From assembly GCF_026914265.1 (NCBI RefSeq), contig NC_069130.1:16453366-16517365 (forward strand): DNA of 64,000 nucleotides. The letters are read 5' to 3'. Source of the stretch: Mya arenaria (lineage: Eukaryota; Mollusca; Bivalvia; Myida; Myidae). A program made the position numbers and the translations under genes. This document shows, piece by piece, positions 19,901 to 43,026 of this stretch (position 1 is the stretch's first letter; each line of letters starts with the position of its first letter). The notes beneath the pieces are model-generated. The model had not been told where the DNA came from. It did not search any database and saw only the letters and a list, made by a program, of their open reading frames with translations.

Positions 19901-22900
19901 CTTATCATCAACGCGTATATAAATATTTTTACAAAACATGCAAAATTTGGTCTTTCAGTTTAATTTCGAAATTGGCAGTTTCTGGAACTAAACGTTTTGC
20001 TGTTTACGTCCAATTTACGTTAAGATCTATTTATGTGGAATATAACATTCACAGCATACAAACTTTTCACAGCTTACGTCCTGTTAAGTTTAATACCTAT
20101 TCATGTGGATTATAATGTACACCGCTGACGTGCTGTTAACGTAAATACCTACTTGCATGTGCCTTGTGTACTTTGTATAAATGCTTTAATGCCGTGTTCA
20201 CTTTGTTTTCATGTGATTGTGTACCATCTTAGTTGTTTCTATGTTGTGTACACTGTGTCTCTAAACATTGTGTCTCTATATGGTTGCACCTTGTGTCTTT
20301 GTGTCAATGTGATGGTGCCAAGTGTTCACTTTCCTGTGGGCAAGTGCTTGAAAGTTTAATTTTGACCATTGTGATTGTGTCCTCATTAATGGTCACTGCA
20401 TGTATGTGCCTTGTGTACTTTTTCCCCATGTGATTGTGACTTGTATGTGCTGTTGCCATGTACACTATGTCTCAATGCATTTGTTTTTGTGTATTATGTC
20501 TTGTTTACTTTATATTAATGTGCATGTGCCTTGTTTACATTGTCCTAAGATGTAAGTCATTTCATTTCCAATTGCGGTAGTGCCTTCTTCAATATGTCAA
20601 GACGTGTTTGTTTATCCTGTAGCTTGTCATTGAGCGAGTGTACCTTGTGTAATGTGTTCCTTCTCCTTCTCTGCCAGCTCTTTGTGTACATTGTCCCCAT
20701 GCGTCTGCCTTGAGTGTATTGTATTTCTTGTCCCTTTTCGATTGCTTCTTCTGCAATATGTCACGGTGAGGTTGTTTCATTCTGTACCTTGTCCCTGTGT
20801 GATTTTACATTGTGTACGTGATGCCTACTTGCCTTGTGCACTTTGTCCCTTGCGATTTGGCCTTGTGTTTCTTGTCAATTGTGCGTTTTGGACTCTGATT
20901 TTATCCAAATATTCACATCTGTTAATGTCTTCGGTTTTTACCTCATGTGCTGGTGCCTTGTTTATACCTTGTCCCTTTGTATTTATGCCTTGTGTTTTTG
21001 TTCCTTTGTACACGTGCCTTGTGTTCTTCGTCATTATGTGTTGTGTCTTGTGTTTTTGTCCCCTTGTGTTGTGCCTTGTGTACTTTGCCACTATGTATTT
21101 GTGTCTTGTGTTCTTTGTCCTTATGTACTTGTTCCTTATGTATTTTGTCCCTATGTATTTGTGCCTTGTGTACTTTGTCCCTATGTGTTGTGTCTTGTGT
21201 ACTTTGTCCCCATGCATTTGTGTCTTGTGTTCTTTGTCCCTGTGTACTTGTTCCTTGTGTACTTTGTCCCTATGTATTTGTGCCTTGTGTACTTTGTCCC
21301 TATGTGTTGTGTCCTGAGTAGGTTGACCTTATGTATTTGTGCCTTATTAACATTGTCCCTATGTTGAAATGGGCCGTGAGCCGGTAAAATAACCCGGTTA
21401 CTTTAGCATCTTCACCCGGCTGATTTTCCCGCATCAGCAAAAATAAATTATGTTATTTTTGGTAATGTTTTTTTCTGAATACATCCGTTTAAAACCCTGA
21501 TTGTTGGTATTGTTTATTTTGGTTTCCGCGCGTTCCTATTACAATACAGCATTAGCTCGAAACGTGACGTCAATAGTCGCATCACTCTCTGGGATGTTTT
21601 CAAGTACTAGGTTTTGGTTTTTCAGCGTTCCGAATACAATAACATTAGCTCGATGCATGACCTCATCAGTTGCATCCCCTTCCGGGGATGTTTTGAAGTT
21701 AATAATTTGCGAAGTAATGGAGGGTGAAAAAAAGAATATTTTTCCCCAGATCCCAAAAGAAGTAATTTTGCAGCATGACCGTGTCTGGCCTTCTGTTAGT
21801 CCTATTTCCATTAATCCCACAAGGGGCGTTGCCCCCTTGACCCCAACTGTGGGAGGACACACATGCCCACCAGGGATATTCCCTTTAGGGATATTCCCTG
21901 CTTCTTAAATTATTTTCTACACCCCTGGATGTATTTGTTCCTTGTGTACTTTGTCCCTATGTATTTGTTCCTTGTGTACTTTGTCTCAATTTATTTGGGC
22001 ATTGTGTACTTTGTCCCTATGTATTTGTGCATTGTGTTCTTTGTCCAAATGTATTTGTTCTTTGTGTTCTTTGTCTCTATGTATTTGTTTCTTGTGTACT
22101 TTGTCTCTATGTATTTGTGCCTCGTGTACTTTTTCCCTATGTGTTAATGCCCTATGTACTTTGTCCCTATGTGTTGTGCCTTGTGTACTTGGTCCCTATG
22201 TATTTGTGTCTTGTGTGCTTTGTCCCTATGTATCAGTGTATTTTGTCCCTATGTGTTATTTTCGTGTGTACTTTGTCCCTATGTGTTGTGCCTTGTGTGC
22301 TTTGTCTCTATGTGTTTGTGCCTTGTGTATTTTGTCCCTATGTAATTCAGCCTTGTGTTATTGTCCCAATGTGTTGTGCCTTGTGTACTTTGTCCCTATG
22401 TATTTCTGCCTAGTGTACTTTGTCCCTATGTTTTTGTTCCTTGTGTACTTTGACCCTATGTCATAATGCCTTGTGTACTTTGTCCTAATGTGTAACTGCC
22501 TTGTGTACTTTGTCTCTATGCGTTGTGCCTTCACCAAGGACTAGAAATATTGGTTAAAAGAGGCTTAAATTCATCCCACAAGGGGCGTTGCCCCCTTGAC
22601 TCTAACTGTGGGAGGACACACAGACCCCCCAGGCCTACTTTTGGGATATTCCCTGCTACATAAATTATTTTCTACACCTCTGAATGTATTTGTTCCTTGT
22701 GTACTTTGTCCCTGTGTATTTGTTCCTTGTGTACTTTGTCTCAATTTATTTGGGCATTGTGTACTTTGTCCCTATGTATTTGTGCATTGTGTACTTTGTC
22801 CTAATGCATTTGTTCTTTGTGTTCTTTGTCCCTATGTATCTGTTTCAGTGTACTTTGTCTCTATGTATTTGTGCCTCGTGTACTCTGTCCCTATGTGTTA

Positions 22901-24937
22901 ATGCCCTGTGTACTTTGTCCCTATGTGTTGTGCCTTGTGTACTTTGTCCCTATGTATTTGTGTCTTGTGTTCTTTGTCCCTATGTATCTGTGTATTTTGT
23001 CCCTATATATTATTTTCGTGTGTACTTTGTTCCTATGTGTTTGTGCCTTGTGTACTTTGACCCTATGTAATAATGGTTTGTGTACTTTGTCCTAATGTGT
23101 AACTGCCTTGTGTACTTTGTCCCTATGCGTTGTGCCTTCACCAAAGACTAGAAATTTTGGTTAAAAGAGGCTTAAATTCATCCCACAAGGGGCGTTGCCC
23201 CCTTGACCCTAACTGTGGGAGGACACACAGACCCCCCAGACCTACTTTTGGGATATTCCCTGCTACATAAATTATTTTCTACACCCCTGGATGTATTTGT
23301 TCCTTGTGTACTTTGTCCCTATGTATTTGTTCCTTGTGTACTTTGTCTCAATTTATTTGGGCATTGTGTACTTTGTCCCTATGTATTTGTGCATTGTGTA
23401 CTTTGTCCTAATGTATTTGTTCTTTGTGTTCTTTGTCTCTATGTATTTGTTTCAGTGTACTTTGTCTCTATGTATTTGTGCCTCGTGTACTCTGTCCCTA
23501 TGTGTTAATGCCCTGTGTACTTTGTCCCTATGTGTTGTGCCTTGTGTACTTTGTCCCTATGTATTTGTGTCTTGTGTTCTTTGTCCCTATGTTTCTGTGT
23601 ATTTTGTCCCTATATGTTATTTTCGTGTGTACTTTGTTCTTATGTGTTGTTCCTTGTGTACTTTGACCCTATGTTATAATACTTTGTGTACTTTGTCCCT
23701 ATGTGTAACTGTCTTGTGTACTTTGTCCCTATGTGTTGTGCCTTGTGTTCCTCGTCCCAATGTGTTTTGTCTTGTGTACTTTGTCCCTATGTATTTGTGT
23801 CTTATATTCATTGTCCCTATGTATCTGTGTATTTTGTTCCTATGTGTTAATTTCGTGCGTACTTTGTCCCTATGTGGTTGTGCCTTGTTTTTCTTTGTCC
23901 CTATGTAATTGTACCTTGTGTTTTTGTCCCTATGTTTTGTGCCTGGTGTACTTTGTCCCTATGCATTTGTGCCTTGTGTACTTTGTCCCTATATATTTGT
24001 TCCTTGTGTACTTTTTCCCTATGTGTTAATGCCTTGTGTACTTTGACCCTATGTTTGTGCCGTGTGTACTTTGACCCTATGTTTTATGCCTTATGTACTT
24101 TGTCCCTATGTGTTTGTGTCTTGTGTACCTTGCACCTTTGTATTTGTGCCCTTGTATACTTTGTTCCTTTGTACACATGCCTTGTGTACTTTGTCCCTAT
24201 GTATTTGTTCCTTGTGTTTTTTGTCCCTATGTATTTGTGCCTTGTGTATTTTGTGTATTAATGTCTTGTGTAATATTCACGATTTGTTTGTGCCTTGAGT
24301 ACTTGGTTCCTATTTATTCGTGCCCTTGGTACTTTTCAACTATGTGTTTGTGTCTTTTGAACTACGTCTCTATTTGTTATGCCGTGTATATTTTGTACCT
24401 TTGCTTGTGTACTTTTCCCCGATGTGTTTTTGACTTGCGTACGATGTCACTATATCGTTGTATCTTTTGTAATTTGTACCTATGCTTTGGAGTAAAATTG
24501 AACTAGGCTTAAACCTTTAATTGTCGAGGGTATTACTTGTTAGTTTATGCCTATTGCATAAATGCGATTCTTTAAGGTTACAGTAAATAAACAACTTGTG
24601 ATTCATCATACCCAATAATGACCTAAATACAACGTTTTCAGAAAATATGAAACAAGGAAGATAACGATGATTCATTTTGATTCTTTAAACTTACCAAAGT
24701 TAATCTTAAGAAATGTATATAAACATGCTGTTATAAAGCTTACGGACTGAAAGATATATATGTTGTATTTCAAGAACATCTGATTTTAAAAATGTAAAGC
24801 TTAACATACGTAAATAACGGTTATATTGAAAGTAAAACAAGGTTAAACAATCATGAAAACATAAACAAACCTGAGAAACCAATCATGCTGAAGGTCATAA
24901 AACCGACAAAAATGCTTTTAATTCCATGCATTTTCAT
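16945..24937 (-). CDS. Gene A: cysteine-rich signal-peptide and transmembrane protein, four exons
   Basis: I do not recognise this family. Four exons join in perfect phase: 24937-24871, 19452-19320, 18650-18490 and 17234-16945, with donors GTTTGT, GTAAGT and GTAAGC and CAG or AAG acceptors. The total is 651 bases, or 216 residues. Exon 1 is a signal peptide, MKMHGIKSIFVGFMTF and onward. The ectodomain (about residues 23-135) carries nine cysteines, three contributed by each of exons 2, 3 and 4, and looks helical. The C-terminal half of exon 4 holds two hydrophobic segments, starting IGGVLAFLCLVTAV and ALLVMIVAVIWIGY, then a short tail ending CDCCEV. All nine cysteines and the exon phases recur in gene B. 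Intron 1 (5.4 kb) is mostly a 30-bp minisatellite. A TATA-like TTTATATTT lies roughly 30 bases before the start codon. The role is unknown; a secreted or cell-surface recognition protein is a guess. Confidence 0.78.
17412..17740. mobile_element. MITE with 23-bp inverted ends, in intron 3 of gene A
   Basis: The left end contains AAGCTGCACTCTCACAGATT and the right end AATCTGTGAGAGTTCAGCTT, an imperfect terminal inverted repeat. The 330-bp interior has no coding sequence. It lies between exons 3 and 4 of gene A and has no counterpart in gene B, so it arrived after the paralogs split. Confidence 0.7.
21363..21930. mobile_element. Mobile-element-like insert inside the satellite
   Basis: A 0.57 kb non-satellite sequence interrupts the array. 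It has two diverged tandem units of about 90 bases, each with ATTAGCTCGA and GGGATGTTTT. Its right end has the hairpin AAGGGGCGTTGCCCCCTT and then GGGATATTCCCT. The right-end part alone (about 150 bases) reappears as spacers at 22540-22686, 23140-23290 and 40905-41035. The superfamily is unknown. Confidence 0.55.
22540..22686. repeat. Spacer 1 of the higher-order satellite repeat
   Basis: This 150-bp spacer contains GGTTAAAAGAGGCTTAAATT, the GGGGCGTTGCCCCC hairpin and GGGAGGACACACAGACC. It is nearly identical to the spacer at 23140-23290, which shows that spacer plus satellite block was amplified as one unit. Confidence 0.8.
23140..23290. repeat. Spacer 2 of the higher-order satellite repeat
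   Basis: This is a second copy of the 150-bp spacer and precedes the block shared with array 2. Confidence 0.8.
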
Positions 24938-25675
24938 TGTTTGTTAATTTTCACACCTATTGAAAATATAAACCAAGCTCTATGTTTATCTTCAACTTTT
25001 GATATTCGAAGTTTAAAACTGAACTGAATATATCCTTGACAGATAAACAAAGTTAACCGAGCAGACAATCCACTAAAAAAACTAACAAAAAGTAATTAGA
25101 GCCATAAAACCTTATTTGCACGAAAACGACTGGATTATGATATTCAGCAGTCTCATAAATACAGTGCAATTGATTGTATTGAACATAGAGACATATGTTA
25201 CCACACCGACGCCAATATTTATGTGAAAAAACTACAGAAACAAACTCAGTAGCCAAAAGTTTAAACATACACCCCGTTTAATTTCGACCGAGCCTCGAAT
25301 GATTCCAGCAGAAAAAGATTGTTGACTCGTTCGAAAAATAACCAATGCTAGTTTAGATTGTAGTGTAGTAAAATATGTCATTTACACCGTGAAAATGTGT
25401 CTTTGTTATTCTCAATAAAAGTATAAACAGTATTACAATACATTGGCATCAACGTATGACAAATGTAAAGTTTAAAAAACATTTTTTTGTTATTTATTAA
25501 ACCTTTTAGAAATATACATAGGTGTATGAAATGAAACCCAGATCTACATTTATTGAATCGTTAATATTATTAACGATTCTACAAAGTAAATAAATATTAC
25601 TAAACCTATTAATTCTGAATGAATAATATATATGTCACAGTACCGATACCTCCACATGTGGTGAGGAGGTGTGTA

Positions 25676-25752
25676 AGCGGTCCGGTAGCTCAGTCGGTAG
25701 AGCACTCGCCCTGATAGCGAGGGGTCCCGGGTTCGAGCCCCGGTCTGGCTGC
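25676..25752 (+). repeat. tRNA-Lys-like sequence within LTR 1
   Basis: TAGCTCAGTCGGTAGAGC and GGGTTCGAGCCCC match the D and T arms of animal tRNA-Lys, and both Pol III boxes are intact. The anticodon stem pairs as CTCGC with GCGAG, but the loop CCTGATA lacks the usual T before the anticodon. The acceptor stem has one mismatch. I read it as a tRNA-derived promoter module and not a working tRNA gene. Confidence 0.75.
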
Positions 25753-25947
25753 ACACTTTTCTCACCCTGTGACATTTGGCGCCCAATGTGGGGCCGTGGC
25801 AGCACTGTTTGGCAGCATAATGCGCTCTCAGTGTTAATTATGTGCATTCCTTAGCACTGGTGTTCCTCAAATTCGAGGACGACTTTCCAGTTTGCGGGGA
25901 AGTATGTCACGGTACCGATACCTCCACATGTGGTGAGGAGGTGTGTA

Positions 25948-26024
25948 AGCGGTCCGGTAGCTCAGTCGGTAGAGCACTCGCCCTGATAGCGAGGGGTCCC
26001 GGGTTCGAGCCCCGGTCTGGCTGC
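25948..26024 (+). repeat. tRNA-Lys-like sequence within LTR 2
   Basis: This is identical in all visible bases to the module in LTR 1, as expected for paired LTRs. A tRNA finder could report both as tRNA genes; the LTR context argues against that. Confidence 0.75.
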
Positions 26025-26171
26025 ACACTTTTCTCACCCTGTGACATATACTATCGATAATTTACTTCGAAAGGACAAGATACCAGATGGTGTCGGGAAC
26101 ATCGGAATTAGATATTTTACTATGTTTGTCATATTTAACCAGTTTAACTATTTAATAACTATACCTATAAG

Positions 26172-26262
26172 TTATTTTGACTCCTTATTTTGACTCCTGA
26201 TTTTGACTCCTAATTTTGACACCTGATTTACACCTGATTTTGACTCCTGGTTTACTCCTGAT
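26172..26262 (+). repeat. Short minisatellite TTTTGACTCCTGA
   Basis: About seven imperfect units of TTTTGACTCCTGA, 11-14 bases each, lie in tandem. The same array is present at 43845-43936 in the other duplication copy, so it predates the duplication. Confidence 0.8.
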
Positions 26263-28004
26263 ATTCTTCCCGCTGTTACAGTATTCCGTGCGTCTCGATT
26301 TGTCATTGTTTGCTGCAGTATATATTAATGAGACAAAGCAATAAGGACCACAGAGTTTTCAGAGTTCAGTTGGGAGAAAGATTTCTTTTATGAATCATAA
26401 TATTCAAAACTTACAATTAGTTAAATGTTTATGTTTAGAATTGATGATAATTATTATTGTATGTATTTAGATAATTAGCCGTAAATAATTCATACACAAA
26501 TCTTATTTTAAGCACACTTTATGTATTTTAAAGTTTTCAGCGTGTATTATTGAACTTCTTATAGTTATTTCAAAGTCGAAAATGAACTAAAACCAAATTG
26601 ATAAAGTACACGGACATTTTAGGTTTGATAAAGTTCACGGTCGTTTACAACCTTCAGTGTATATACTCATTATTTCACTGACTGGTGCTAAAACGAGTTA
26701 TTATAAATTTATTTATTATTTCTATTCTTCAAATTCATTATTGAACATTGCTCCATGTTTGAAAAGACGCATTATAATGGAGTGGCAATGCAAGAATGAA
26801 CGCGTTTTAACAGTTAGACCGACGGAGTCGCCTAAATGATGGGCTCATTTTCATGAATCATGGAAACATGTATTATTACACTAAAATTCAGTCCCGTATT
26901 TTAACAATATATTCGCAATTGACATATAAAGGGCTTTAAGTTTTTGTAAAGGGTGTTCCACTTCTTTTTCGTATCGTATATGTAAAACGTGTTTGTATTC
27001 ATTATACATGGTAAACAGTAACACATAACTGCTTAGCCCATGCCGTTTATTTCGTTTGAACTATTAAGCTTAAGCACACGTGCAATAAAAACGAATAAAG
27101 TGTGTTTTTTGTACAAATGTATCGTATACCTGGGACGATTGCGCGCATCCTATCCGATCATCTTGTTTATCCGCATACATGTAGCTATACTCATGCATAA
27201 ATTCATATAATGACTGTATCCCATTTTGATGTTCACAACCTAAGTCTGTCCAATATTACGTTACAATTTATCCGTGTACAAAATATGTACTAGTTGTAGA
27301 TTATTATTTCAACTATAAATTTAAGACATGTTTATTTAATCCTAGCACTGTTATGTGTGCAAGTTATCCATGCGAATCACAAATCATCTGATGTAAACAT
27401 CAGTTTGTCACTGAAGTCATCTGCGTTTTTATGTTAATGTTAAATACCTTGAGCAAATATTTTGCAATACGAGCTACCCGACACAATATATATAAAAACA
27501 TCAGTTTTCAGTGGTTTGAATAACCCATTGAGATGTAAACTTCATAACACAGTGAACAGCGAGCATTCAGCTTGTTTTGTTATAAGGTGAATGAGTTGAC
27601 TTATATTTCAGGATACTTGTTACATGCACTGGAGCGGCAGTAAATGCGACTGGTGAGGATATTTTGTTAATATTAATTTTATGTTGCAGTAAAGAAATGT
27701 CAAAAACTGACTGAAAATTATTCAATATGATTTGTTTTTACTAACTTCATTGTGTTTGATATTTAAAGATGATACTATGACGAACATGCTAAAATGGTCA
27801 TATTTTTTAACTTTCTTTTTAAGTCTGTGGTCAAACACAACTAAATTCAAATACAAAAATCTGCTGCGGAAGCCTTCCTCATGCAAGGTTCATAGGCGGA
27901 CACGAGTTTGGATGTTTTCAAGGTAAGGTTTAAAAAGTGTTATTTTCGTAGCTCAACCACACGATTTTGTCCTAGCAGTGTTATTTCATTTATATTACGC
28001 TGTT

Positions 28005-36475: not shown

Positions 36476-39400
36476 TTAACAGCAATTGCAGTAATGTGCA
36501 GCTCTTGCTTTAGTAGCTGCTGGAATCAAATATAACACGATTGCATTAAAGTAGTCTTGTAAAACTACGCCCAAAAATATAAAACAGGCCATAAAGGTTT
36601 CGGCATTAAACGTGGGCAATAATCGAACGGCGGTAAGACAAAACAAAACAAGGCATATTAAAGCAAGACTTCCTCCAATAACTTTAGCTGCGGGTATTTG
36701 AAGGCACCTTACAATACACCTGAATTGATCATCTGTGTATTCGCGCCGGATTTGACACCATACCCCTGGAATAGTAATAGCCATTTTATAATATTGGCGA
36801 ATTATTTACATTTTTTCCATTCCTGATTATTCGAAGGCACAATGACAGTGCCAGCTACATATACATCCATTTTTAACGAATATGTGATTTTGTCGTTGAA
36901 ACCCTTTTAAAATAAGGCGATAAAAGTAGTTCAGGCTGTTAGCATAATAAATTAGATAAGTCAATAATAGGTGATGATGTCATGGTAGCAACTTAAGAAA
37001 ATGGAAAACCAAAACGAATCGGACACGCTAAAACATTATGAAGCTTACTTTCACAGGACTCCCATCTAAAGGGCAATGTTGCGAACATTGAGTCCACACG
37101 TTTGTTTCGAAGTGCAGTACGCATGTGCAGGACACACAGCTCTATTTTCTCAAGCTCACTCCATCCAAAAATTGATTGAGCAACGCAATTCAGCAACACT
37201 TTTAATTGTCTGTAAATTAAATAACAAATGAACGGTGTAATAATTGTTTTAAACATAAAGTAATATGGAAAATAATAATTTCGCATGATGTTGGCTGATC
37301 CTTCAGAATAAAATACTCGATATTCTATACGACAATGTCCGAACATTGATTTGGCTCGTCAGAAATTTCAAATGGTGAGCTTGGCCTTTATTCCACTCGA
37401 CATTTAAAATCTCACATTCCATTGCTCCAGCTTGCGTATCATACGGCTAGCATTTCAACTTTGTCGTTTCTAATGGTGAATGAAAAGCCAACTAGACATT
37501 CGAAATTTGACTCTAGAGCGAACTGTCGACCTTATTGACGAGCCTGCTTAATATTTGGACTTAGAATGATTTAGTCGAGCTGATTAAAGAACTGTCTTGT
37601 CATTCTGTATTTGGTATTTAAAAATTATGTCTATTGAATTTAATGTTAATATCGATATACCAATTTCACACCGCCTTATGCTTAACAATTTTATATATTG
37701 ACAGCAGTTTTCAAATATCTCACTGTCGACTGAAATGATTCTATACCCTACACGTGAGTCATTTGATAACGTATTTGTTCCGAAGTAATAATACAATTGA
37801 TTATTTAAAAAAAATCAACAGTATATTGTTGTGAATAGCTCTAGAAGCCATCTTACGTGCACATTTCTTTTATATCTGTTTGTTGAACGATCCAGGTTAA
37901 CATTGTAATATATCCAATCGGCTTGCATGCTGACTTCTGGAAAGCTTCTTCGATATTCTGGACAGTGGAACAAATCTTTTCTGGCGCAAGGCTTCCTTCA
38001 ATGTTATGTTAGTCATATTCAGACTTAAAAGGGTCGATTGTATCAATGTTAACACATAAACAATAAATATTTTCATACCACTTCTTCATTTGGATACAAT
38101 TACTTTTTCTAAATTTCAGAAAACTATCACCATACAAATGTAAACTTTTTATTTACATCTGTGTTGTTATGCCTTTAGTTCCAACACTTGTAACACTTGC
38201 GGTTGTACTTGTCTACATTTTACGCATGTGCCTTTGTTGTGTGTGCTGTATCCTTATGTGAGTGTGCTTGTCTAAACTATACCAATGTGGTCTAAACTAT
38301 ACCTTGTGTTCATCGTACCAATGCGATTGTGCTTGTCTACACTATACACATGTGCTTGTGCATTGTGTACCTTATCACCTAATGATTTTTTGTTCCGTAC
38401 ATTGTCCTTATCTGACTGTGCTCTTTGCATTTTGTTACAGTGTGCATGTGTCTTGTGTACTTCAGGCCTTTGTGACAGTATCGTATGTATTGCACCCGTA
38501 AGAAGTGGTGTCATGTGTACCTTGTCCCTATGTACTTCCGCCTTGCCTAGTTTGTCTCCGTGCCAATGTGTCTTTTGTACTTGGGCCATGTCCCCATGTA
38601 AATTTGACAGGTGTACATTGTCCATGTTCTTGCCTTTTGCAATCTGTAGTTATGTGTTTGTGCTTTTTGTACTTTGTCTCCATGCAAGTTTGCCTTTTGG
38701 TTCTTTGCCCCTGTGTATTTTTATGTTATGTACTTTGCCCCCGATTAGATGCGATTTGTGTACATTGTCCCCATGTGTTTGTTTCTTCTGCTATTTGTAG
38801 CCCATCCTATTGTGCTAGTTTATTGTGTTCTTTGTTACTATGTACTAGTTCATTGTGTTCTTTGTTACTATATGCATGTGTCTTGGGTACTATGTTCCTA
38901 TATGCTTGTGTCTTGAGTACTTTGTTCATATATACTGGTGTCTTGGGTACTTTGTTCCTATATGCTTGTGTCTTGGGTACTTTGTTCCTATATGCTTGTG
39001 TCTTGGGTACTTTGTTCCTATATGCTTGTGTCTTGAGTACTTTGTTCATATATGCGATTGTCTTGGGTACTTTGTTCCTATATGCTTGTGTCTTGGGTAC
39101 TTTGTTCCTATATGCTTGTGTCTTGGGTACTTTGTTCCTATATGCTTGTGTCTTGGGTACTTTGTTCCTATATGCTTGTGTCTTGAGTACTTTGTTCCTA
39201 TATGCTTGTGTCTTGGGTACTTTGTTCCTATATGCTTGTGTCTTGAGTACTTTGTTCCTATATGCTTGTGTCTTGTGTGCTTTGTTCATATATGCTTGTG
39301 CTTTTAGTACACTTTTCATATATACTTGTGTCTTGGGTACTTTGTTCCTATATGCTTGTGCCTTTGGTACTTTATGCCTATATGCTTGTGTCTTTGTACT

Positions 39401-42400
39401 TTGTCCACAAATGCCTGTGTCTTGGGTACCTTGTTCATATATGCCTGTGCCCTTGGTACTTTGTTCATATATGATTGTGTCTTGTGTACTTTGTTCCTAT
39501 TTGCTTGTGCCTTGGGTACTTTGTTCATATATAAGTTTGCCTTGGGCACTTTGTTCCTATATGCTTATGCCTTGCTTGGGTACTTTGTTCTTATATGCTT
39601 GTGCCTTTGGTATTGTGTTCATATATGGTTGTGCTTTGGGTACTTTGTTCCAATATGGTCGTGTCTTGGGTACTTAGTTCCTAATAGCTTGTGTTTGCTG
39701 TACTTTGTTCTTATATGCTTGTGCCTTGGGTACTTTGTTCCTATATGCTTGTGTCTTGGGTACCTTGTTCCAATATGATTGTGCCTTGGGTTCCTTGTTG
39801 ATATATGGTTGTGCCTTGGGTATTTTTTTCTTATACGCTTGTGCCTTTGGTACTTTGTTTCTATATGAGTGTGCCTTGGTTAATTTGTTCTTATATGCTT
39901 GTGCCTTTGGTACTTTGTTTCTATATACCTGTGCCCTTCGTGCTCTGTTCATATATGAGTGTGCCTTGGTTAATTTGTTCTTATATGCTTGTGCCTTTGG
40001 TACTTTGTTTCTATATACCTATGCCCTTCGTACTTTGTTCATATATGATTGTGTCTTGTGTACTTTGATCCTATATGCTTGTGCCTTGGGTACCTTGTTC
40101 CTATATGCTTGTGCTTTTGGTAATTTGTTTCTATATGATTGTGTCTTGGGTACCTTGTTTCTATCTGGTTGTGCCTTTGGTAGTTTGTTTCTATATGCTT
40201 GTGCCTTGGGTACTTTGTTCCTATATACTTGTGTTTTGGGTACTTGTTCATATATGTTTATGGCTTGTGTTCTTTGTTACTTTATGCTTGTGCCTTTGGT
40301 ACTTTGTTGCAATACTATGTCCGAATGTGCTTTGCTAGTGTGTACTTGATCACCCTGCGCTTATTATTTATGTTTTACTCCTTTGAGTATGCCTTGAGTT
40401 CTTTATGTGTATGTATTTGTGAATTGTGTACTGTATGCTTGTTTCTTGTGAACAGTGTCTCATAGTGATTGAACATTAAGTCACCATGTGAAAGTGCCTT
40501 GTAACTATCCTTTTATGCTTGTGTATTGTGTTCTTCGTTCAAACGTCCCTTTACCTACAAGTGTCTTTGTCTTATGGACTTTTTTCCACATGTGCTTGTG
40601 CCTAGGTTACTTTGTCCGTATGAATTAGAGTATTCAGCGATTTTCTCCTATATGTTTGCGCCTTTGTGTTTTCGACATGTGCTAGTGCCTTGTGTACCTT
40701 TTTCGCAACTCTTACCTTGAACATTTTGTCCCTATGCCATTGAGATTTGTGCATTTTCACAGTATGTTATTGCACCGTGTGTAGTAAGTGTACTATAGTA
40801 ATTTGTTTAATTAATTAGCCCTCACTGGTGGGGGGAGTACTTAGATTCAGTATCATATTCAATTACATTTATGTAAAGGTTCCATGTTAAAAAAAAAAAC
40901 ATGCACCAAAGACTATAAATTTTGGTTAAAAGAGGCTTAAATTCACCCTATCTGTGGGAGGACACACAGACCTCCCAGGCCTACTTTTGGGATATTCCCT
41001 GATACTTAAATCAATTTCTACACCCCTGAATGTATTTGTTCCTTGTGTACTTTGTCCCTATGTATTTGTTCCTTGTGTACTTTGTCTCAATATATTTGGG
41101 CATTGTGTACTTTGTCCCGATGTATTTGTGCCTCGTGTACTTTGTCCCTATGTGTTGTGCCTTGTTTGCTTTGTCCCTATGTGTTTGTGCCTTGTGTACT
41201 TTGTCCCTATGCAATTCTACCTTGTGTTATTGTCCCTAAGTGTTGTGCCTTGTGTACTTTGTCCCTGTGAATTTGTGCCTTGTGTACTTTGTCCCTATGT
41301 TTTTGTTCCTTGCGTTTGACCCTACGTTATAATGCCTGGTGTACTTTGTCCCTATGTGTAACTGCCTTGTGTACTTTGTCCCAATGTGTTTTGTCTTTGT
41401 GCCTTGTGTTCTTGATCCCTATGTATTTGTGCCATGTGTAATTTGTCCCTATGTAATTGTGCCTTGTGTACTTTGTCCCTATGTATTTCTGTCTTATGTA
41501 CTTTGTCCCTATGCATTTGTGTCTTGTGTTCTTTTTCCGTATGTATTTGTTCATTGTGTACTTTGTCCCTATGTATTTGTGTCTTATGTTCTTTGTCCCT
41601 ATGTGTCTGGTTATTTTGTCCCTATGTGTTAATTTCGTGTGTCCTTTGTCTCTATGTGATGTGCCTTGTGTGCTTTGTCCTTATATGTTTGTGCCTTGTG
41701 TTCTTTGTCCCTATGTAATTGTACCTTGTGTTTTTGTCCCTATGTGTTGTGTCTTGTGTACTTTGTCCATATGCATTTGTGCCTTGTGTACTTTGTCCCT
41801 ATGTATTTGTTCCTTGTGTACTTGTTCCCTATGTGTTAATGCCTTGTGTACTTTGTCCCTATGTTTTGTGCCATGTGTACTTTGTCCCTATGTGTTTGTG
41901 TCTTGTGTACTTTGTCCCTATGTGTTTGTGACTTGTGTAGTTTGACCCTGTGTGTTAAAGCCTTTTGTATCTTGCCCCTTGTATTTTTGCCCTTGTATAC
42001 TTTGTTCCTTTGTACACATGCCTTGCGTACTTTGTCCCTATGTATTTGTGCCTTGTGTATTTTGTCCCTATGTATTTGTGCCTTGTGTACGTTGTCCCTA
42101 TGTATTAATGCCTTGTGTACTTTTTCCCTATGTGTTTGTGTCTTGTGTACTTTGTCCCTATGTGTTTATGCCTTATGTACTTTGTCCCTATGTGTTTGTG
42201 TCTTGTGTACCTTGCACCTTTGTATTTGTGCCCTTGTATACTTTGTTCCTTTGTACACATGCCTTGCGTACTTTGTCCCTATGTATTTGTGCCTTGTGTA
42301 TTTTGTCCCTATGTATCTGTGCCTTGTGTACTTTGTCCCTATGTATTAATGTCTTGTGTACTTTTTCACGATTTGTTTGTGCCTTGAGTACTTGGTTCCT

Positions 42401-43026
42401 ATATATTCGTGCCCTTGGTACTTTTCAACTATGTGTTTGTGTCTTGTGAACTATGTCCCTATTTTTTATGCCGTGTATATTTTGTCCCTTTGCTTGTGTA
42501 CTTTTCCCCGATGTGTATTTGACTTGTGTACGGTGTCACTATATCGTTGTTTCTTTTGTAATTTGTACCTATGCTTTGGAGTAAAATTGAACTAGGCTTA
42601 AACCTTTAATTGTCGAGGGTATTACTTGTTAGTTTATGCCTATTGCATAAATGCGATTCTTTAAGGTTACAGTAAATAAACAACTTGTGATTCATCATAC
42701 CCAATGATGACCTAAATACAACGTTTTCAGAAAATATGAAACAAGGAAGATAACGATGATTCATTTTGATTCTTTAAACTTACCAAAGTTAATCTTAAGA
42801 AATGTATATAAAAATGCTGTTATAAAGCTTTGGGACTGAAAGATATATATGTTGTATTTCAAGAACATCTGATTTTAAAAATGTCAAGCTTAACATACTT
42901 AAATAACGGTTATATTGAAAGTAAAACAAGGTTAAACAATCATGAAAACATAAACAAACCTGAGAAACCAATCATGCTGAAGGTCATAAAACCGACAAAA
43001 ATGCTTTTAATTCCATGAATTTTCAT
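36476..43026 (-). CDS. Gene B: paralog of gene A, four exons
   Basis: This is the same unknown family as gene A. Exons are 43026-42960, 37995-37857, 37209-37049 and 36765-36476, with correct phases and GT-AG borders. The total is 657 bases, or 218 residues. Exons 1, 3 and 4 have exactly the lengths of gene A (67, 161 and 290 bases); exon 2 is two codons longer. The signal peptide, MKIHGIKSIFVGFMTF and onward, differs from A at one residue. Exons 2-4 are far less alike, although all nine cysteines align and blocks such as CVLHMR and CxVRCL are kept. Exon 4 has hydrophobic segments beginning IGGSLALICLVLFCLTAV, and the protein ends HYCNCC. Intron 1 contains minisatellite array 2. No stop or frameshift is seen. 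Confidence 0.78.
38210..40790 (+). repeat. 30-bp minisatellite array 2, subfamily B
   Basis: The unit is close to CTTGGGTACTTTGTTCCTAT followed by ATGCTTGTGT, 30 bases long, with about 48 regular copies between 38.87 and 40.31 kb and degenerate flanks. It differs from array 1 at consistent positions (GGGTAC versus GTGTAC, TTCC versus TCCC). Frames up to 390 codons on the plus strand and 170 on the minus strand follow from the stop-free 30-base period. Confidence 0.92.
40905..41035. repeat. Higher-order satellite spacer, gene B copy
   Basis: This spacer shares GGTTAAAAGAGGCTTAAATT and GGGAGGACACACAGACC with the array 1 spacers, but lacks the GGGGCGTTGCCCCC hairpin portion. Confidence 0.75.
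41036..42565 (+). repeat. 30-bp minisatellite array 2, subfamily A
   Basis: This has the same 30-base unit as array 1 and ends in the same irregular units before the unique sequence that precedes exon 1 of gene B. It is the counterpart of 23.29-24.49 kb. Confidence 0.92.

Follow-up and report, generated by a model that had tools for sequence, protein, structure and literature searches.

Within a 64,000-nucleotide stretch of the genome of the clam Mya arenaria (contig NC_069130.1, positions 16,453,366 to 16,517,365; hereafter the window), a 414-bp repeat at positions 25633–26046 appears to carry a tRNA-like sequence inside its long terminal repeats (LTRs). What kind of element is this, how might it be transcribed and copied, and is it new to animals? 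A sequence-only reading of the window had described a miniature element with TG...CA LTRs, a primer site, a purine tract and a TATA duplication at these positions, and its coordinates proved exact.

Architecture of the element and its tRNA-like module

The element consisted of a 142-bp 5' LTR (25633–25774), an internal part of 130 bp (25775–25904), which is too short to encode a replication protein, and a 142-bp 3' LTR (25905–26046), all on the plus strand, as are the features of the element described below. Both LTRs started with TGTCAC and ended with GTGACA, and they differed at a single position (LTR position 7, A/G). TATA bounded the element on the left (25629–25632) and on the right (26047–26050) and was taken as the target-site duplication. 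The internal part opened with TT, followed by the primer-binding site TGGCGCCCAATGTGGGGC (25777–25794). This site was of tRNA-Lys type, as had been proposed, and matched the complement of the 3' end of the host tRNA-Lys(CTT) plus CCA at 17/18 bases. The internal part ended in GCGGGGAAGTA, with the polypurine tract GCGGGGAAG at 25894–25902. The tract was preceded by a TTCGAGGACGA motif (25872–25882), the commoner form of which, TTCGAGGACGAATTTC, also occurred in an otherwise different family (family D, see below). Only two runs of four or more T were present in the element, at LTR positions 125–128 of each LTR (25757–25760 and 26029–26032), in both cases after the tRNA-like module. Just past the element, at 26177–26265, seven TTGACTCCTGATTTT-like units were found at a spacing of 11–13 bases. 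Elsewhere in the window, long overlapping open reading frames (ORFs) of the MYLCLVYFVP type extended in several frames over 20652–24506 and 38285–42449 and were probably low-complexity repeats.

The tRNA-like module occupied 25679–25751 in the 5' LTR and 25951–26023 in the 3' LTR. A covariance search, which the sequence-only reading had suggested, matched the complete Rfam tRNA model RF00005 to both LTRs (47.2 bits and E 8e-09 each); at E values up to 1, the region 25400–26300 yielded these two tRNA matches only, and none to 5S rRNA. ARAGORN called a tRNA-Ser(TGA) in both LTRs. A long variable arm is a feature of tRNA-Ser, and the call was a 74-base frame without one. The earlier claim that the D and T arms are identical to tRNA-Lys held for the D arm and for part of the T arm: compared by eye with the host tRNA-Lys(CTT), the D-arm stretch TAGCTCAGTCGGTAGAGCAC agreed at 20/20 bases, identity in the T arm was limited to the inner 13 bases GGGTTCGAGCCCC, and the outer stem pairs of the T arm, the anticodon arm and the acceptor stem differed. 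The A and B boxes that had been noted in each LTR were recovered as box-like motifs at LTR position 54 (TAGCTCAGTCGG; 25686–25697 in the 5' LTR) and LTR position 98 (GGTTCGAGCC; 25730–25739). They contained TRGCY, YGG and GGTTC, the motifs used to recognize Helenus elements, which are TRIMs with tRNA-like LTRs (Kojima 2024, available text of PMC10886601).

A search of the element's own genome (1.216 Gb, 18 contigs) with the whole element gave at least 47 matches among the best 40 of 469 candidates scored, some of the matches overlapping in arrays. With up to three mismatches allowed, a pattern for the tRNA-like module had 134 matches in the genome and one for the internal part had 57; the reversed control patterns had none. 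The element belongs to a dispersed family, here named family A, and chance is excluded. The abundance of the module is also a warning for annotation, since tRNA-Ser(TGA) genes are predicted from intact copies.

Related families and the proposed route of transcription

A pattern for the primer site, TTTGGCGCCCAACGNGGG, had 135 matches in the genome (control 0); 30 of them were read together with flanks of 1.5 kb, and a further 20 with short ones. Besides family A and some unassigned matches, these included a near relative of family A (L121, L122), families B, C, D, X and Y, and a probable family E (L118). Family B had the LTR type of family A and a different internal part, and family C (L095, L096) was older. 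Family D was a distinct, tRNA-bearing family with LTRs of the form TGTAACC...TGTTACA; its copy L106 had an internal part of 107 bp, TAAG on both sides and a TTTT upstream of the tRNA-like part.

It had been proposed that a Ty3/gypsy relative using the same primer mobilizes the element. Families X and Y were found to carry the primer site of family A. Their first ORFs gave matches to Retrotrans_gag, with E values of 0.0005 and 0.0018, and to aspartyl-protease models; none of these reached the Pfam curated cut-offs, and both families are likely 'Gypsy' by these sequence matches. Junction and purine-tract searches of the genome found no autonomous element with the family A LTR. Two copies with coding-looking sequence beside the LTR (L027, L030) were considered as an autonomous partner and rejected after junction searches, in which, among the best 40 of 220 and of 262 candidates scored, only the own locus crossed the junction. 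The coding-looking piece of L027 had no Pfam match, and the flanks of both copies belonged to a dispersed long LTR family (family H) with LTRs of the form TGTCGCGG...CGCGACA, a different primer site and a distance of about 7.7 kb from one LTR to the other. A candidate coding element with a D-type LTR (L088) was also rejected, as it proved by eye to be an inverted LTR piece beside another ORF. Three unusual matches fetched from the 61 to a purine-tract pattern were D-type TRIMs.

Family A copies were joined to or lay beside family H at three loci (L018, L027, L030). The joints at L027 and L030 were not at the outer ends of the TRIM, so these two may be template-switch recombinants. A further copy (L073) was joined to or lay beside Gypsy-type pol, and matching sequence was present beside L011. 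L073 comprised an LTR and an internal part that ended exactly at the purine tract, was flanked by TTTG on both sides and sat between RNase H-like and integrase-like pol pieces. Together with the near-identical L074–L076 it made up four repeats with a period of about 31.4 kb (contig C17, 1.61–1.71 Mb).

The position of the boxes suggests a transcript made by RNA polymerase III (Pol III). Transcription would start slightly upstream of the A-box-like motif, near LTR position 40–46, read through the TTTT of the 5' LTR, a possible (leaky) Pol III terminator, cross the internal part and stop at the TTTT in the 3' LTR. The R part of such an RNA would correspond approximately to the whole tRNA-like module. 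The weakest step is the read-through, which full-length RNA needs because the TTTT is present in the 5' LTR as well. Among 74 distinct LTRs, 12 had no TTTT near the 3' end. A TTTT within the internal part was present in 3/46 copies; its absence means little, since a shuffled internal part lacks one with a probability of 0.47. In L106, where the TTTT precedes the tRNA-like part, the repeat region would be short and closer to that of Cassandra as described in the available text of PMC10886601.

The same TTTT in the 5' LTR, which should stop Pol III, favours a Helenus-type TRIM transcribed by Pol II instead, with the tRNA-like part being a passenger or having a role in packaging, reverse transcription or chromatin insulation. 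The conservation of the module fits this alternative in part. Across the 74 distinct LTRs, the A-box region was among the least diverged (2.3%), and the B-box region (4.8%) was not below the rest. LTR positions 54–72 had a divergence of 2.2–2.3%, compared with 3.7–8.2% elsewhere in the LTR, a difference that could partly reflect a choice of loci favouring well-conserved copies. A functional RNA fold also found no backing in covariation. The LTR folded well (−63.6 kcal/mol, z −3.0, 2/200 shuffles as good) owing to the inverted repeats that its ends form around the module, and the 74 LTRs had no covariation for either the cloverleaf or an extended rod fold (three compensated cells in either case, compared with shuffled means of 1.7 and 3.0). 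A rod-like or cloverleaf RNA under selection as a structure was rejected on these grounds. Against transcription by Pol II, an A-box-like and a B-box-like motif were recovered by script in both family A and the probable family E, the LTRs of which otherwise look unrelated. Family D, the LTR of which is otherwise unrelated-looking too, keeps the tRNA-like stretch by eye; in the one D copy to which it was applied (L106), the script detected neither box, and the boxes were visible by eye in other D copies. In addition, transcripts of Cassandra arise from its Pol III promoter, according to the available text of PMC10886601. Overall, we regard the Pol II alternative as unlikely, and transcription from the tRNA-derived promoter is the reading followed below.

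Two forms of the primer site

The primer site of the element existed in two forms, which matched the terminal 18 bases at the 3' end of two tRNA-Lys types of the host. A tRNA-Lys 3' pattern, TTCRARYCCCWCGTTGGGCG, fitted 85 sites in the host genome; counted by hand, 37 ended in GCCCCACGTTGGGCG, 48 in GTCCCTCGTTGGGCG, and none was mixed. Fifteen of the 85 sites were fetched. All ten sites with the first ending were identified as tRNA-Lys(CTT), the tenth from a sequence cut at its end. The five of the second type had a tRNA-Lys body, an intron and, by our reading, TTT at the anticodon; ARAGORN called four of them Lys or stop and one Leu(TAG). Arrays of tRNA-Lys were present on contigs C2 (53.17 and 54.08 Mb) and C6 (74.37 and 77.04 Mb), with periods of about 1.25 kb for tRNA-Lys(CTT) sites and about 0.7 kb for the other type.

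The forms were scored in 46 copies with both LTRs readable, after dropping those with fewer than 142 readable bases on either side, those with an early-stopped internal match and exact duplicates. Over six bases, 20 copies were of TTT type, 17 of CTT type and 9 of another kind. At the two diagnostic bases alone, 23 copies had A-A, 18 had T-G and 5 had something else. The diagnostic columns fall exactly where the two tRNA-Lys types of the host differ, and they had the highest minor-allele frequencies (0.45 and 0.40; next 0.325) among the 412 columns of 40 equal-length copies.

On a tree built without the primer site, which had few supported branches (4/41 starred), TTT-type sites needed 15 changes (shuffled mean 15.1; 282/500 shuffles as low) and CTT-type sites 14 (shuffled mean 13.9; 323/500 as low). 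Sites of the other kind clustered (6 changes, 9/500 shuffles as low), which is expected of decayed or duplicated copies. With these left out, pairs of copies with at most two other differences were of the same type in 15 cases and of different types in 13. Two copies on contig C7 (L053_1500 and L065_1772) were identical at 394 positions outside the site and differed only at the two diagnostic bases. Families X, Y and D had both primer-site types, the CTT type being represented by three copies in D (one of them the rearranged L088) and one in Y. In family X, the TTT-type L089 had the CTT-type L090 as its nearest copy, at a distance of 0.8% across about 2.2 kb; the two share flanks and may duplicate one locus, which weakens this comparison.

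Judging by the sequences, the type of the primer site is not tied to the remainder of the element. Since the types are scattered on the tree and copies identical elsewhere differ only at the site, the site seems to be rewritten from the tRNA primer. Either tRNA-Lys would prime the first strand, and copying of the primer during plus-strand synthesis would rewrite the site, with reverse transcriptase and integrase supplied in trans by a Ty3/Gypsy element. In HIV and SIV, primer-site switching is attributed to a plus-strand copy of the tRNA primer (available text of PMC4549124), and simian endogenous retroviruses vary between tRNA-Lys types (available text of PMC8775094). By analogy with HIV and SIV, we infer that the same process may operate on the site of family A. 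In those viruses, a copy of the primer tRNA becomes part of the new DNA, so that the site can change from one tRNA-Lys type to another, as would be the case here. The two types are nearly equal in the miniature family A, whereas the alternative is rare in HIV and SIV and, in the simian endogenous retroviruses, the types are mostly sorted by genotype, as far as the available texts of the two papers describe them.

A different origin of the two types would be old sublineages mixed by recombination or gene conversion, rather than fresh copies of the primer. Arrays and joined loci, which could have provided the occasion, do exist, and family B combines the LTR type of family A with another internal part. 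Conversion would, however, have had to stop repeatedly at an 18-base site in elements that, identical elsewhere, differ only there. Moreover, the types were not clustered on the tree, they equal the 3' ends of two host tRNAs, and the same pair recurred in the Gypsy-like families. We consider this origin quite improbable.

For rewriting from the primer, a stronger version can be put forward, towards which we lean slightly: the primer site would not be heritable at all, being redrawn at nearly every retrotransposition from a mixed pool of tRNA-Lys(CTT) and tRNA-Lys(TTT) on which the resident Gypsy-like elements draw as well. Were this the case, the proportion of CTT- and TTT-type sites among young copies would document in the genome which primer was chosen within the particle, and a TRIM with a Pol III transcript bounded by a tRNA-like R region would replicate with a primer site of no fixed lineage. 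Primer-site switching serves as a test of replication that needs sequence only, and here it points to retrovirus-type priming by tRNA-Lys.

Genomic copies and comparison with known elements

The LTR organization was recurrent across the genome. Of 30 loci retrieved with the internal part as the only query, 22 were bounded by an LTR at both ends and 8 at one end, which agrees with the earlier description of a miniature LTR element; copies lacking the LTR-primer-site structure, which would have spoken against that description, did not turn up among them. At least two LTR matches were present in 39 of the 40 loci chosen by the whole element (window included), a choice that favours complete, well-conserved copies, and 6 of the 39 further loci had three LTRs in a row. 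Perfect 4-bp duplications flanked 23/40 loci (window included), compared with 16/1560 crossed left and right flanks; the 40 include duplicated loci with the same flanks (L031/L035, L041/L047 and L044/L045). The primer site and the purine tract recurred in the copies. The two LTRs of a copy differed at 0 to 28 positions (window pair: 1), so both young and old copies are present. Solo LTRs, for which a search had been proposed, were found in the host genome with 4/4 flank matches at L147/L148, L152 and L156; L147 and L148 share flanks and therefore represent one event.

Some copies had unusual ends. L057 and L059 began at or within one base of the primer site and consisted of the internal part and the 3' LTR, with neither a 5' LTR nor a duplication, a form that might come from failed second-strand transfer. 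In 4/40 loci (L011, L018, L030, L032), TTT plus TGG... stood right after the last LTR; the stretch was an 18-base copy of the tRNA-Lys(TTT)-type primer site in L032 and an antisense tRNA-Asp(GTC) with CCA in L011. These stretches resemble DNA ends on which the primer tRNA was retained, plus one extra T.

The module was tied to the LTR. It was covered by 84 of the 86 LTR matches in the 40 loci, and the other two ended inside it. Eighteen further places, chosen from 100 listed of the 134 module matches because no internal part was seen nearby, held 19 modules, none of them free of LTR sequence (11 in complete and 8 in truncated LTRs); a few of these LTRs adjoined a primer site (after) or a purine tract (before) and were hence not solo. 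A tRNA-derived SINE or a real tRNA gene inside an unrelated repeat, with an LTR-like structure that is coincidental or arose by later duplication, would account for the tRNA score of the module and has the tandem arrays in its favour, but is hardly credible in view of this joint occurrence of module and LTR, the 4-bp duplications of the solo LTRs themselves, the recurrent primer site and purine tract, and a module that makes an odd tRNA, called as Ser without the long arm. A separate SINE insertion, which the sequence-only reading had named as a way to be wrong, was accordingly not borne out in these copies.

The window element is very probably a young copy of a Helenus-type TRIM: non-autonomous, with a tRNA-derived Pol III-type promoter in its LTRs, and presumably primed by tRNA-Lys and dependent on Gypsy enzymes in trans. 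The novelty of a tRNA counterpart to Cassandra in an animal, implied by the earlier reading, did not stand, as Helenus TRIMs, including molluscan ones with tRNA-Lys sites, have been published. As described in the available text (PMC10886601), Helenus occurs in animals, fungi and a lycophyte, with 51 families in pteriomorph bivalves; its Pol III transcription is not validated there. The likeness extends to two LTRs around a short internal part in an element of less than 1000 bp (here 142 + 130 + 142 bp), to tRNA-derived LTR sequence with both boxes, and to a primer site and a polypurine tract at the ends of the internal part. Animal members have 4-bp duplications, as did the family A loci, and solo LTRs and tandem arrays occur (the latter in a zebrafish family). 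tRNA-Lys is among the bivalve primers, and animal Helenus members share primer sites with Gypsy elements, which is paralleled here by families X and Y, if these are Gypsy as is likely (available text of PMC10886601). Family A thus has every defining feature of Helenus that was tested here and is of a kind already known, matched on the description rather than on the sequences of Helenus families. For Helenus, the available text of that paper does not describe a primer site that changes between two isoacceptors in one family.

Other small elements were less similar. Cassandra of plants and Ajax of nemerteans likewise have a small-RNA promoter in the LTR and have been placed with Helenus-like elements in a proposed class, TRIMp3, but their LTRs contain 5S rRNA instead of a tRNA module (available text of PMC10886601). 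The bivalve element biv-TRIM is also a small LTR element with solo repeats and tandem arrays. It differs in its terminal repeats of 202–218 bp and internal domain of 77–80 bp (142 and 130 bp in the window element) and in having no unambiguous primer site, in contrast to the clear tRNA-Lys site found here, and no tRNA is mentioned in its terminal repeat in the available text (PMC6934838). Set beside these systems, Mya arenaria is one more genome with miniature elements that carry a tRNA-like sequence in their LTRs, and what it adds is an unusually clear imprint of which host tRNAs primed their copying.
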